A DNA stretch of 12,784 bases from JBFLXN01 sp040755715 [NCBI: Candidatus Edwardsbacteria bacterium]. Lineage in GTDB: Bacteria > Edwardsbacteria > AC1 > JBFLXN01. Position numbers and translations under genes: made by a program. Positions 3,991 to 10,645 of the stretch are shown here, one piece after another. The DNA lies in NCBI GenBank assembly GCA_040755715.1, contig JBFLXN010000070.1:1-12784 (forward strand). The letters are read 5' to 3'. The notes beneath the pieces are model-generated. The model was not told the origin of the DNA. It saw only the letters and a list, made by a program, of their open reading frames with translations, and ran no database searches. Position 1 is the first letter of the stretch; every line of letters begins with the position of its first letter.

Positions 3991-4010
3991 AAGATAGGGA
4001 GTGGACGAAA

Positions 4011-4143
4011 ACCACGGAGGGCACAGAGGTAATGAACAAATAAGTGGGAAGTGAGAAGTAAGAAGGGGAAAGTTATGAATTTCTTCAGTTCCCATTTCCA
4101 ACTTCCTACTTCCCAGTTGAGTCTTCTCTGTGTTCTCTGTGGT
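4011..4143. repeat. Long imperfect hairpin element between ferredoxin and hypE
   Basis: The left end ACCACGGAGGGCACAGAGG (4011-4029) is inverted at the right end (about 4125-4143), 15 of 19 bases matching. An inner pair also matches: AAGTGGGAAGTGAGAAGT from 4042 against the complement of CTTCCTACTTCCCAGTT. The element holds no real gene and occupies most of the gap before hypE. Confidence 0.6.
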
Positions 4144-4177
4144 AAAATTATAAAATTGAATTTGTTGCTATTCAAAA

Positions 4178-5224
4178 ATGAACGATAGAATAACCATTAA
4201 TACCATTCTCCTCGCTCACGGCGGTGGTGGACGATTAACCCACGAACTGGTGAGCAAAATTTTTAAGAGCAAATTCAATAACCCCATTTTAGATTTGCTT
4301 GATGATTCAGCCGCTTTTGAGATTCAAGTAGGGGCGTTAAATTTAACGCCCCTACAACTGGCCTTTACTACTGATTCCTATGTGGTTAAACCTTTTTTCT
4401 TCCCGGGAGGGGATATTGGCAAATTAGCGATTTGCGGCACGGTAAATGATTTGTCAATGAAAGGAGCCAAGCCACTCTATCTCTCCGCAGCATTTATTAT
4501 AGAAGAGGGATTGGAAATTTCCATCCTTAAAAGAATTGTTGATTCTATGGTTCAATCCGCTAGAGAAGCAGAAGTGCAAGTTGTAGCCGGGGATACCAAA
4601 GTAGTAGAAAAAGGAAGTGGTGATGGACTTTTTATTACTACGACAGGAGTAGGAGTGATTGAAGATAAATCTCTAAAAATCTCCGGTTCTAACGCCGAGC
4701 CGGGTGACCTAATCATTTTGAGTGGTTCAGTCGGTGAACACGGTATGGCTGTAATGAATGCCCGCCACCAATTTGGATTTGAAAGTGAATTTCTCAAGAG
4801 CGATTGTGCTCCATTAAATTCTTTAGTGACAAAAATGTTAGAAACAAATCAAGAGATTCATACCTTACGGGATCCGACCCGGGGAGGTTTAGCCACTACG
4901 CTCAACGAAATCGCTCAACAGTCCAAAGTTGGTATATTCATTGATGAGAGAAAAATTTTGGTAAAGGAAGAAGTCAAAGGTGCTTGCGAACTATTAGGAA
5001 TTGACCCTTTATATGTTGCTAATGAGGGTAAATTGGTAACAATGGTAAAAAGAAAAAGTGCAGAAAAAATTCTTGAAGTAATGCATACTCATCCTTACGG
5101 AAAGGAGGCGGTTATTATTGGCGAAGTGAAAGAGGAGCCAGTAGGTGTTTTTTTACAAACAGAAATTGGCGGCACCAGACCACTATTAATGTTAGAAGCA
5201 GAACAATTGCCACGAATCTGTTGA
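4178..5224 (+). CDS. hypE: Hydrogenase maturation protein HypE, carrying an in-frame palindromic insert
   Basis: A PurM-like ATP-binding protein of 348 residues. By family it dehydrates the thiocarboxamide placed by HypF on its C-terminal cysteine, making the cyanide ligand of [NiFe]-hydrogenase. Visible signatures are AHGGGGRLTHEL (13-24), LAFTTDSYVV (61-70), FFPGGDIGKLAICGTVNDLS, VVAGDTKVVEKG, DPTRGGLATTLNEIA and the obligatory C-terminal PRIC ending in Cys348. Residues 51-60 (VGALNLTPLQ) look extra compared with the family and are encoded by a perfect palindrome at 4328-4355. There is no convincing ribosome-binding site before the ATG, and a hairpin repeat ends about 35 bp upstream. hypABCDF and hydrogenase genes are absent from the window, so hypE is an orphan here. 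The protein looks complete otherwise. Confidence 0.95.
   Translation: MNDRITINTILLAHGGGGRLTHELVSKIFKSKFNNPILDLLDDSAAFEIQVGALNLTPLQLAFTTDSYVVKPFFFPGGDIGKLAICGTVNDLSMKGAKPLYLSAAFIIEEGLEISILKRIVDSMVQSAREAEVQVVAGDTKVVEKGSGDGLFITTTGVGVIEDKSLKISGSNAEPGDLIILSGSVGEHGMAVMNARHQFGFESEFLKSDCAPLNSLVTKMLETNQEIHTLRDPTRGGLATTLNEIAQQSKVGIFIDERKILVKEEVKGACELLGIDPLYVANEGKLVTMVKRKSAEKILEVMHTHPYGKEAVIIGEVKEEPVGVFLQTEIGGTRPLLMLEAEQLPRIC
4328..4355. repeat. Perfect 28-bp palindrome inside hypE
   Basis: The arm GTAGGGGCGTTAAA (4328-4341) is followed without a spacer by its exact reverse complement (4342-4355). It is flanked on both sides by AA (4326-4327 and 4356-4357). Removing 28+2 bp leaves hypE in frame and yields EIQ-LAFTTDSY, close to ordinary HypE proteins. 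Confidence 0.85.
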
Positions 5225-5244: not shown

Positions 5245-5477
5245 ACCATAGAAGCACGGAGGAACGGAGACACGGAAGAATCAAATGACAGATTATAACT
5301 AAACTCTAAGTCCTAAATCCGAAATCCTAAACAAACTTAAAATCCAAAATCCCAAAATTTTTATTTTAGGTTTGTAGTTTTGGATTTATTTAGAGTTTAG
5401 TGTTTCGAGTTTAGAGTTTTTGGTCTGATTTCTGACTTCTGTAATTTTCCGTGCTTTTCGTATTTCCGTGGTTAATG
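5245..5477. repeat. Long imperfect hairpin element between hypE and the EIIA gene
   Basis: The ends are ACCATAGAAGCACGGAGG (left) and TTTCCGTGGTTAATG (right, to 5477), imperfectly inverted. An inner perfect 12-bp inverted pair is ACTAAACTCTAA (5298-5309) against TTAGAGTTTAGT (5390-5401). The right end shares CGTGGTTAATG exactly with the element at 10503-10645. This element takes up almost the whole 269-bp gap; I see no gene in it. Confidence 0.6.
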
Positions 5478-7540: not shown

Positions 7541-8875
7541 ATGATTAAAAACACCATAGCGCCAAAACAAACAAAACAGACGACCATGTTCGGGACGTAC
7601 GAGTTTCCTTCTTACGAAGAGATAATGGAAGCTTATGCTAAGGAATTTGCAAATTATGTCCTCCCGAAGGGGGATACAATATTTGGCTTCTGGATGCAAA
7701 CATTAGCTGATTTGGAATTTTTAGATTTGGAGTTACAAGGGTTAACTAAGGAATATATCATAGACCCAGTTAATAGGGTTGTTAATCTCAAGGGTGACGA
7801 AGATTTTATAAGATTGAGAATTGCCCACCTTGAAAAAGTTAAAGGAAAAACAACTCTCTATACTAATTTGGTAGATAAATTTGGCGATACTAATGCCTAC
7901 GCTTTTCATAATCTTTATCCATATAAAGGTAAATTTTATCCTCGTGTAGTGCGAACTTTAATCAATGCCTTCAAGTTAGATTACAATTCGTTTCTTCTTG
8001 ACCCTTTCAATGGTTCTGGAACTGCTACTCATGAGGCTTCTCTAATGGGAATTAAGAGCATCGGCATAGATGTTACTCCAATGGGAATCGTTTTATCTGA
8101 GTTAAAAAATGATTTGCTTTTCATTGATGAGGAAAAATTGAGTTTTACACCAAAAGAGCTACAAGAGATTTTGCATGCAATAGAAAATAAAAGATGGAAA
8201 CATGCTGATTCTATAATTCACAAATTGATGTTGGCAGTATATTTTGATACTGTTGATGCTTTTGTGAGGACTTCGAGATATAATAGAAAAGGGAAGGTGG
8301 GTCTTTTTCTCGAAAAGTTCCATTACATAAAAGATTGCTATAAAAAAACTATGGAGATTAAAGAAAAATATGGACTTAAATTTGAGCCTGCCCACATTAT
8401 ACAAGGGGACATACTTGAACTAAAAAACATGAATGAAATGCAAGAAAAATTTGATGTCTGTATTACAAGTCCACCTTACTATTTTTCTATAGATTATGTT
8501 GGAAAAGATAAAATTGCTTATGATTATTTAGGTGCTGATATGAAAGAGATTGAATCTAAGTATCTGGGAATGAAAAATAATGGACAGCCAAAAAGCAACT
8601 ATAATGGTTTGCCTCCAAGGGTTGCTATGTATTATGAGGATTTAAAGGATTCCGTAAATAATATCTTCTGGGCATTAAAACCCGGTGGGAAGTTGGCAAT
8701 AATAATTGGAGATAGCACTGTTAATGGCAAAAAAATTCCAACAACTATGACGACTAAAAAGTTCTGTGAAGAAGCAGGATTCAAGTTTGAAAAGTTAATA
8801 TTTAATCCTCTTTTAGGTGCTCGTAACAGGGCAATAAGAGGAGAAAGTGTGATAATCTGTGAGAAGGGGCAATAA
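7541..8875 (+). CDS. DNA methyltransferase (probably N4-cytosine or N6-adenine), modification part of an R-M cassette
   Basis: A protein of 444 residues with two hallmark motifs: the SAM-binding DPFNGSGTATHEA (154-166) and the catalytic TSPPYYFSIDY (309-319). The SPPY form favours N4-cytosine methylation, although N6-adenine enzymes can share it. Motif I precedes motif IV, with about 145 residues between them that could hold the target-recognition region; LKPGGKLAIIIGDS (379-392) follows. It would protect host DNA from the nuclease encoded two bases downstream. The ATG at 7541 has no clear ribosome-binding site, and an ATG at 7586 is an alternative. The cassette looks richer in A/T and in ATA and TTA codons than its neighbours, which suggests horizontal acquisition. 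The recognition sequence is unknown. Confidence 0.85.
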   Translation: MIKNTIAPKQTKQTTMFGTYEFPSYEEIMEAYAKEFANYVLPKGDTIFGFWMQTLADLEFLDLELQGLTKEYIIDPVNRVVNLKGDEDFIRLRIAHLEKVKGKTTLYTNLVDKFGDTNAYAFHNLYPYKGKFYPRVVRTLINAFKLDYNSFLLDPFNGSGTATHEASLMGIKSIGIDVTPMGIVLSELKNDLLFIDEEKLSFTPKELQEILHAIENKRWKHADSIIHKLMLAVYFDTVDAFVRTSRYNRKGKVGLFLEKFHYIKDCYKKTMEIKEKYGLKFEPAHIIQGDILELKNMNEMQEKFDVCITSPPYYFSIDYVGKDKIAYDYLGADMKEIESKYLGMKNNGQPKSNYNGLPPRVAMYYEDLKDSVNNIFWALKPGGKLAIIIGDSTVNGKKIPTTMTTKKFCEEAGFKFEKLIFNPLLGARNRAIRGESVIICEKGQ

Positions 8876-8877
8876 AT

Positions 8878-10140
8878 ATGATTATGAAAAGGAACCTTCT
8901 GTGTGTAAAGGCAAGAGAAAAACTAGACCTTGGTCGGCTATTACTCTATGAACCATACAAAAACATATTGGTGAAATTTAAGGAGCTATGTATGGATATC
9001 AATGCTAAAGATTTCGATCCTGTAGCCAAAGTTTACCATGGATTATTGAGTGTCCCTCCTGAAATTAGGGAATATTATGAAGCTTTATTAGGTGTTACTT
9101 CCTATTATGAATCCAGTCATGGTGGCAGAGGAAAATATATTGAAAAGAAAATTGCCTCGTCTTTTGAAACTTGTTCTCTTGACATAGAACTTAGTAAACT
9201 TCCATTTTGGTTGGAATATCCATCGCTTCATAAAAAGAAAGGAATCTTTACTCAGCAAGGATTGTCATCAGACGAAAAGAAAATTTTAAGAACAATTGAA
9301 TGGGATTGGATAGGTGATAGAGATGTAAGCACAGATGTGGGAAGCATTATACATAATGAAAGAGCAATGGTGTTGGTTGAACTAAAAAATAGAGTAGATA
9401 CCGGTGGAACGGCTGGAAGGCGAGAGGTTTGGACTTCAGAAAAGTTTGGAATCTTTGTAGAGTATCTAAAGTCCAATAAAAAGTTGTTTAGAAAAAGTGG
9501 CAAAGAATTTTCTTTGGCAGAATTGCTTGAAAATTTTGGAATTGAACATTTGGAAATTTATTTAGGTGTTTTATTTGATAAGGGTGACAGGCCTGCAACA
9601 TTGGAAAGTGACAAAATCAACGGTTTTTATTCTTCAAGCAAACAGGGTTTTGAATATTTACAAAATTTAGTTAAACAAAGTTCAACAATAAAGATAGTTA
9701 GTGAGGATCCGGAAAACCTGCAAATTGAACTTGACTCTGTTTATTCAGATTTGAAAGTTAAGATAGGTACTTTATATGGAAATGATATTTCATTAAAGCT
9801 TTTTAGAAAAAGTTTCCCTGTAGCTGACTTACTCTTGTTAAAATATGACGATATTTGGTTGTCTCAGCTAATAACCATTGATGAAAGAACCATGCTACTC
9901 AAGTATCGAAAGAATTATATGTCAACTTTTCTGGACTTATTGAAAAGAGATAAGGATTTGAGAATAATGTACGACAACATTATCAATTCGGAATGTGAAG
10001 AAGGCGAACTTAATGCGATTGTAAATTACATACTTGATAAATATACTGCTATCTTTGAGGACAAAATGTTACCTACCGGTAGGGAGAAAGTCCAATATTT
10101 AGCAGATGTAATTCAAGTTTTATGTGCTGCGGAGTCGTAA
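8878..10140 (+). CDS. Putative type II restriction endonuclease (PD-(D/E)XK-like)
   Basis: I do not recognise a precise family for this 420-residue protein. A plausible PD-(D/E)XK nuclease core is visible: a helix with Glu89 (GKYIEKKIA), acidic residues in WIGDRDVSTD (Asp147, 149 and 153), then a hydrophobic strand AMVLVELKNRVDTGG giving Glu168-x-Lys170. The remainder is mixed and charged, with no membrane segment or other motif. It begins two bases after the methyltransferase stop and ends one base before the zinc-ribbon gene, which strongly implies a cognate restriction enzyme. AAGGGG (8864-8869) serves as ribosome-binding site for the ATG at 8878; an ATG at 8884 is possible. Alternatives are a different DNA-acting nuclease of a defence cassette. 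Confidence 0.62.
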   Translation: MIMKRNLLCVKAREKLDLGRLLLYEPYKNILVKFKELCMDINAKDFDPVAKVYHGLLSVPPEIREYYEALLGVTSYYESSHGGRGKYIEKKIASSFETCSLDIELSKLPFWLEYPSLHKKKGIFTQQGLSSDEKKILRTIEWDWIGDRDVSTDVGSIIHNERAMVLVELKNRVDTGGTAGRREVWTSEKFGIFVEYLKSNKKLFRKSGKEFSLAELLENFGIEHLEIYLGVLFDKGDRPATLESDKINGFYSSSKQGFEYLQNLVKQSSTIKIVSEDPENLQIELDSVYSDLKVKIGTLYGNDISLKLFRKSFPVADLLLLKYDDIWLSQLITIDERTMLLKYRKNYMSTFLDLLKRDKDLRIMYDNIINSECEEGELNAIVNYILDKYTAIFEDKMLPTGREKVQYLADVIQVLCAAES

Positions 10141-10502: not shown

Positions 10503-10645
10503 CATAATTCCAAATAATGCGTGAAGGAACCACGAATGAACACGAAAGTTTTGAGTTTGTTGAGTTTATTGGATTTGTTGGGTTAAACTCAATAAAATAG
10601 TGTTACTTCGTGTCCATTCGTGGTTAATGCATAATTTGGGATAAT
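10503..10645. repeat. Long near-perfect hairpin element before aspS
   Basis: The arms ACCACGAATGAACACGAA (10529-10546) and TTCGTGTCCATTCGTGGT (10607-10624) are inverted at 17 of 18 positions. Outer arms (GCATAATTCCAAATAATGC against GCATAATTTGGGATAATT) and an inner pair TTTGTTGAGTTTA/TAAACTCAATAAA extend the fold. The right boundary CGTGGTTAATG is identical to that of the element at 5245-5477. Confidence 0.7.

Follow-up and report, generated by a model that had tools for sequence, protein, structure and literature searches.

A perfect palindrome in frame within hypE of a Candidatus Edwardsbacteria bacterium is probably an intragenic double-foot REP of the TnpA_REP-associated type

The hypE gene of a Candidatus Edwardsbacteria bacterium contains a perfect 28-bp palindrome that is probably an intragenic double-foot REP of the type associated with TnpA_REP (RAYT) transposases, most likely of subclass 2.4 / RAYT group 4. 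A double-foot REP is a repetitive extragenic palindrome whose 5' end is GTAG and whose 3' end is CTAC. We place the probability of this reading at roughly 0.8. The palindrome lies in the window, the whole stretch of 12,784 nucleotides that was analysed, within an ORF identified as HypE by NCBIfam TIGR02124 (456.9 bits, the cut-off being 251.6). On the + strand the site reads ...GAGATTCAA, then the palindrome GTAGGGGCGTTAAATTTAACGCCCCTAC, then AACTGGCC..., with 14 of 14 pairs matched between two 14-bp arms and no spacer. The first base of the palindrome is the first base of hypE codon 51, and its translation is VGALNLTPL(Q), HypE residues 51-60, Q60 being shared with the flank. The sequence-only reading had described this arrangement, including the AA on both sides and the position in frame within hypE, and direct reading of the DNA confirmed it. 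The coordinates are given in Table 1.

Table 1. Features at the palindrome site, numbered along the window.
Feature	Position	Strand	Basis
Probable double-foot REP, perfect 28-bp palindrome GTAGGGGCGTTAAATTTAACGCCCCTAC	4328..4355	.	Direct reading, chance estimate, class comparison, available part of PMC6006769
Left arm, 5' foot GTAG then GGGGC	4328..4341	+	Direct reading
Right arm, 3' foot CTAC at its end	4342..4355	+	Direct reading
Left AA flank, resembles a target duplication with 4356-4357	4326..4327	+	Such matches not above chance in the class
Right AA flank	4356..4357	+	Direct reading; flank statistics
HypE codons 51-60 (VGALNLTPLQ), modelled loop between strands 44-49 and 59-68	4328..4357	+	Translation, structure model
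hypE, 348 aa	4178..5224	+	TIGR02124, PDB HypE matches, model match to 3vti_C

Approximately 9e-5 perfect palindromes with a half-length of at least 14 are expected by chance in the window, and a chance origin was rejected on this ground. Simulation of 300 first-order Markov sequences gave half-lengths of at most 11. Besides this palindrome, the window has just one with a half-length of at least 7, and its half-length is 7.

Three intergenic stretches of the window (4010-4160, 5245-5400 and 10528-10625) are rich in repeat-like wording, namely ACCACGGAGGGCACAGAGG, the pair GGGAAGTGAGAAG / CTTCCTACTTCCC, and AACCACGAATGAACACGAA, which has a 95% inverted copy 60 nt away. Elsewhere in the window, the stretch 7541-10140 encodes a DNA methyltransferase (Pfam N6_N4_Mtase, PADLOC MTase_II) and, directly after it, a 420-aa protein with no Pfam or PADLOC match, possibly the restriction partner of the methyltransferase.

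Members of the palindrome class were sought using the pattern GTAGGGGC, 6-18 free bases, GCCCCTAC, with the reversed pattern as the control. The pattern was present, at 1-21 matches each, in nine of 25 genomes chosen among 80 fetched by HypE similarity. The nine comprised three genomes of Chloroflexi type (Dehalococcoidia, Thermanaerothrix and Anaerolineaceae), two of Planctomycetota and one each of Firmicutes, Ignavibacteria, Omnitrophota and WOR-3, and the control gave one match each in two other genomes. Among 251 Chloroflexota genomes, 85 carried a total of 1219 matches, with up to 154 in one genome, compared to 34 matches in 27 genomes for the control. At least 120 stretches in viral contigs matched the GTAGGGGC...GCCCCTAC pattern. 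When the loci were pooled, the window included, they represented 202 distinct sites, and 133 of these had at most one mismatched pair; lengths of 22-34 bp were allowed, and 92 of the 133 palindromes were exactly 28 bp long and 25 were 29 bp long. The constant ends of the class follow from the search pattern, and the cores are variable yet paired; the core sets of two copy-rich genomes that were compared differed. One 28-mer, GTAGGGGCAATTCATGAATTGCCCCTAC (core AATTCATGAATT), was identical in genomes of different phyla, comprising one Ignavibacteria and two Planctomycetota genomes (G007, G019 and G021), and in viral contigs L106 and L141. The exact 28-mer of the window had no match in the viral contigs and, in a search allowing up to two mismatches, its exact form was absent from 149 Planctomycetota genomes, one of which carried a form differing by a single compensated pair. 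Plasmid records gave three weak matches to the window element, the best with 86.7% identity over 30 of 32 bases. The occurrence of the class in nine of 25 genomes, in 85 of 251 Chloroflexota genomes and in viral contigs supports the proposal that the hypE palindrome is one member of a dispersed class.

The available part of Quentin et al. (2018; PMC6006769) ties double-foot REPs that have GT[AG]G at the 5' end and C[TC]AC at the 3' end to TnpA_REP subclass 2.4, and treats REPs in frame inside tnpA_REP, between HuH and Y, as a feature of that subclass. Since that work describes both double-foot REPs and in-frame gene copies, the nature of the class is already known. The hypE element has the same ends and a long stem. 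Eight fetched copies of the class, from six genomes, lay in frame in ORFs whose products have MPNHVHGI or a motif very similar to it. A profile of these eight ORFs matched a single PDB entry, that of E. coli TnpA_REP (4er8, E 1.2e-5). NCBIfam NF047646, the REP-associated tyrosine transposase, matched all seven RAYT ORFs tested, always below its cut-off (two stretches in six ORFs, one stretch in L203), and Pfam Y1_Tnp reached its cut-off in one of the seven, scored below it in three and did not match three. A RAYT match was found in 42 of 55 Chloroflexota genomes with at least three palindromes compared to 25 of the 196 others (Fisher p = 4e-19, uncorrected for kinship or genome quality). A match here means E <=1e-8 across the 251 genomes to a profile built from palindrome-bearing ORFs, with at most 11 first-look candidates per genome scored among the matches listed. 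There were counter-cases, as 11 genomes had at least five copies without a RAYT match and 19 had a RAYT match without a strict palindrome. No tnpA_REP ORF was seen within the 12.8-kb window.

Thirty RAYT loci were then compared, a set that is biased because it takes the best match from each of the 30 top-ranked of 67 genomes. An in-frame palindrome lay within the ORF in 14 of the 30, downstream of the HUH motif in 13 and upstream in one, and nine of the 13 had a copy 15-18 residues past HUH. Six loci had palindrome copies nearby outside the frame. Carrying a palindrome did not go with a longer HUH-to-WQ distance in these RAYTs. The motif NH[IFV]H was present in 21 loci, WQ in 29 and a relaxed Y[IVL]xxNP-like motif in 29. 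Strict YIxNNP, as portrayed for subclass 2.4 in the available part of PMC6006769, was kept in only four, and most of these RAYTs depart from it. On motif evidence the transposases found with the class thus fit subclass 2.4 only in part, and their exact assignment to subclass 2.4 / RAYT group 4 is no more than likely. At one site upstream of a RAYT gene (L467:4744 / L468:5081), genome G514 has an intact 28-bp palindrome and genome G141 the same palindrome with extra central bases.

Instead of mobile DNA, the palindrome could be a hairpin with a function in hypE at the RNA or DNA level, such as an attenuator, an mRNA stability element or a regulator site, that is translated incidentally. The RNA fold is indeed strong: the 48-nt stretch around the palindrome has a folding energy of -22.1 kcal/mol (z = -4.5), and the palindrome folds into a 12-bp stem with a 4-nt loop. 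However, the same ends and length recur at unrelated sites in many genomes, outside coding-like frames in the one tested. In addition, VGALNLTPLQ, whose presence in relatives would according to the sequence-only reading have spoken against an insertion, was seen in none of 80 HypE relatives. A terminator and an Rfam RNA were each considered and rejected, as no terminator-like site was reported at the palindrome and all Rfam families stayed below their gathering scores within the window. We therefore regard a functional hairpin as improbable.

The sequence-only reading had compared the palindrome to Rickettsia palindromic elements and had proposed a 2-bp target duplication. According to this proposal, the palindrome would be a Rickettsia-type element or another element that duplicates 2 bp of its target, and the empty hypE allele would read ...TTCAACTGG.... 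The AA on both sides, the preservation of the frame by 28 plus 2 bp and the solved HypE 3VTI, which has the length implied by ten extra residues, are all consistent with it. According to the available part of Di Nocera et al. (2013; PMC3733652), Rickettsia palindromic elements are likewise palindromes kept in frame in protein genes, but RPE-4 and RPE-6 carry a CGTC tag and RPE-1 is longer, and CGTC repeats are said to be without a dedicated transposase. The hypE element has no CGTC tag, and its GTAG/CTAC ends fit GTAG double-foot REPs instead. Nor were target duplications enriched in the flanks of the class. Direct flank matches at k=2 were found at nine of 126 sites, compared to 7.6 expected by shuffling, and in three of 72 copies in genome G147. 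The corresponding values over the 126 sites were 30 compared to 25.4 expected at k=1, and 0 or 1 at k=3-9. As the k=2 matches do not exceed expectation, the AA/AA of the window is no more than chance gives. A pyrimidine preceded the element at 93 of 126 sites and a purine followed it at 88; the same flank bases occurred in 39 and 36 of the 72 G147 copies, which is no preference. An A at position -1, as in the window, was found at a minority of sites (14/126). A Rickettsia-type or otherwise target-duplicating element is, in our view, slightly less probable even than a functional hairpin.

The intragenic GTAG REPs reported in the available part of PMC3733652 are another parallel, as they too are translated in frame inside known proteins, where those authors suggest that they form loops or linkers. 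The GTAG families described there are stem-loops with one unpaired GTAG end, whereas in the hypE copy GTAG is paired with CTAC and the palindrome is loopless and perfect. In the part available, hypE is not among the genes named. Compared to the double-foot REPs in the available part of PMC6006769, the window copy differs by its position in a conserved metal-enzyme maturation gene. A literature search with gtaggggc returned nothing on this repeat, judged by the listing, and we do not claim absence from print; the same letters occur in primers in the available part of PMC4192349. Among the matches listed for inserted palindromes in hypE, none was on this subject by title. The kind of repeat is already known, and the hypE copy is probably a new example of an intragenic double-foot REP.

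The HypE protein itself bears on how much sequence was gained. Twenty residues separate the DD and TTD motifs in the window HypE. The spacing in relatives is 13 residues in 64 of 80 (62 counted by script and two more by eye; rows L001, L002, L028 and L067 were read by eye), with none shorter and a range of 13-25. In solved HypE structures, with the alignments read by eye, it is 10 in 3VTI, 12 in 2Z1T, 13 in 2Z1E and 18 in 2I6R. Removal of 30 bp from the window gene leaves 10 residues between the motifs. The earlier claim that this removal restores a family-like length therefore holds for 3VTI but for none of the 80 relatives, whose spacing is never below 13. The claim of ten extra residues gives way in the same manner to a net gain of approximately seven relative to the usual length; a gain of ten is possible given the one short solved HypE, but by these alignments seven appears to be the better estimate. 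A net gain of seven residues would mean that 28 bp came in and about 7 bp went out. That the residues encoded by the palindrome are an ancestral HypE loop, and the palindrome a coincidence of codons, is extremely improbable, since only about 9e-5 such palindromes are expected by chance and its ends match the dispersed class exactly, even though the loop is naturally variable in length among the 80 relatives.

The best HypE relative was 59-60% identical to the window protein. No close relative was found in two Desantisbacteria genomes, where HypE was 58% and 52% identical; the aspartyl-tRNA synthetase of Desantisbacteria CG1_02_38_46, at 57%, was one of the better full-length matches to that of the window. 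A structure model of the window HypE had a mean pLDDT of 93.4 and superimposed on 3vti_C with a TM-score of 0.95 by target length. In the model, residues 50-58 form the turn between the two flanking strands, and the mean pLDDT of residues 51-60 was 79, compared to 92 and 96 for the neighbouring blocks. The earlier suggestion that the insert is kept in frame as a peptide is supported, with the peptide modelled as a beta-hairpin loop. On this model the loop likely tolerates a peptide, and the effect of the palindrome on HypE is probably close to neutral.

IS200/IS605 relatives act on single-stranded DNA, and the spread of REPs by TnpA_REP has been inferred from genomes and from in vitro cleavage. 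If the hypE palindrome is a double-foot REP, a RAYT of the host or of one of its ancestors may have brought a REP hairpin in single-stranded form into hypE, by copying or by moving it. By acting on single-stranded DNA, TnpA_REP would have placed the hairpin without a duplication, and selection would then have kept only frame-preserving outcomes in the tolerant loop. The hypE allele would have survived because the frame was kept, because it is read in a phase without the TAG of the foot and because the peptide falls in a hairpin turn of variable length. The foot can be read in three phases, and a TAG stop arises in one of them; the phase of the window copy, which opens a codon at the first base, is also used by 12 of the 14 palindrome-bearing RAYT loci. 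The complete palindromy of the hypE copy suggests that it may have arrived recently.

Copies in coding sequence were compared in several other settings. In genome G147, a frame with coding-like codon use on both sides was found for none of 72 copies, compared to 326 of 975 random nearby positions (threshold 4); at threshold 0 the values were nine of 72 and 440 of 975. This is a crude test of codon use on both sides of the element and covers 72 of 154 copies. It indicates that the elements seldom lie within genes of G147, and it makes a copy in a conserved enzyme such as HypE unusual. Other in-frame copies were found in a 2-methylcitrate dehydratase gene (prpD), in a Mu gemA-like gene and in a glycosyltransferase gene between its two domains. 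The prpD stretch with its 27-bp REP is 34 bp long, and the corresponding stretch in a relative (protein 82% identical) is 28 bp long and has no palindrome. A second relative (L337, 83%) has an apparent decayed REP with a different core at the site occupied in L296. At this site the native loop is longer in a third relative and in the solved PrpD proteins, so the REP takes the place of native sequence instead of lying next to it. The prpD relative L339 carries a second REP-like palindrome further along the gene, at RPYGSY; native codons there are similar to the end of a REP, and a TAG is reported inside the frame. A viral gene with a REP in its signal peptide is three residues longer or one residue shorter than two relatives, in an alignment read by eye. 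At the signal-peptide site, where L422 has the REP, its relative L424 shows another kind of repeat-like stretch, rich in CTCC/TATC.

Intergenic sites also differed in their cores. At one orthologous site (L471:2245 / L472:2149), two genomes that are 95.7% identical around it had completely different cores, one REP being 25 bp long and the other 27 bp. Five sites with differing strict palindromes were compared between G141 and G514; three differed by point mutations in the element and two by a changed core, and none of the five was empty. A sixth, G514:C1:148356, had no good counterpart in the stretches compared. No empty site was found at the intergenic locus L302, where an inverted repeat of some kind was seen by eye in 20 of 20 aligned loci, drawn from a genus of 57 genomes, with hairpins unlike one another. 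A search of viral contigs for an empty gemA site returned two loci only, each matching the full-length query at 100% identity, and a portal-protein query returned, apart from itself, only distant relatives of at most 64% identity.

The 6 bp gained in prpD, the +3 or -1 residues of the viral gene, the net seven residues of HypE and the core change at the 95.7%-identical site raise a further idea, that double-foot REPs overwrite, the hairpin replacing a target stretch of roughly its own size, with cores that can be swapped while pairing remains perfect. Changes of core at a site together with small net gains in genes hint at overwriting or conversion and not at plain insertion. We hold this idea only tentatively and think it unlikely to be correct, as there are few comparisons, most of them distant ones, and as selection for the frame alone would favour copies with a compensating loss.

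Nostoc reportedly has small dispersed repeats, attributed to Elhai et al. in 2008, that are very small and lie within and between genes. In the present survey, double-foot palindromes were frequent in Chloroflexota and occurred in other phyla as well. Given their strong depletion from coding-like frames in the one copy-rich genome tested, the copies that survive within genes are informative on how REPs land. Where a perfect REP lies in an enzyme that is conserved and can be assayed, the event is marked, and its empty form, its effect on the protein and its footprint on the target can all be measured. If overwriting were true, such elements would rewrite protein loops rather than lengthen them.
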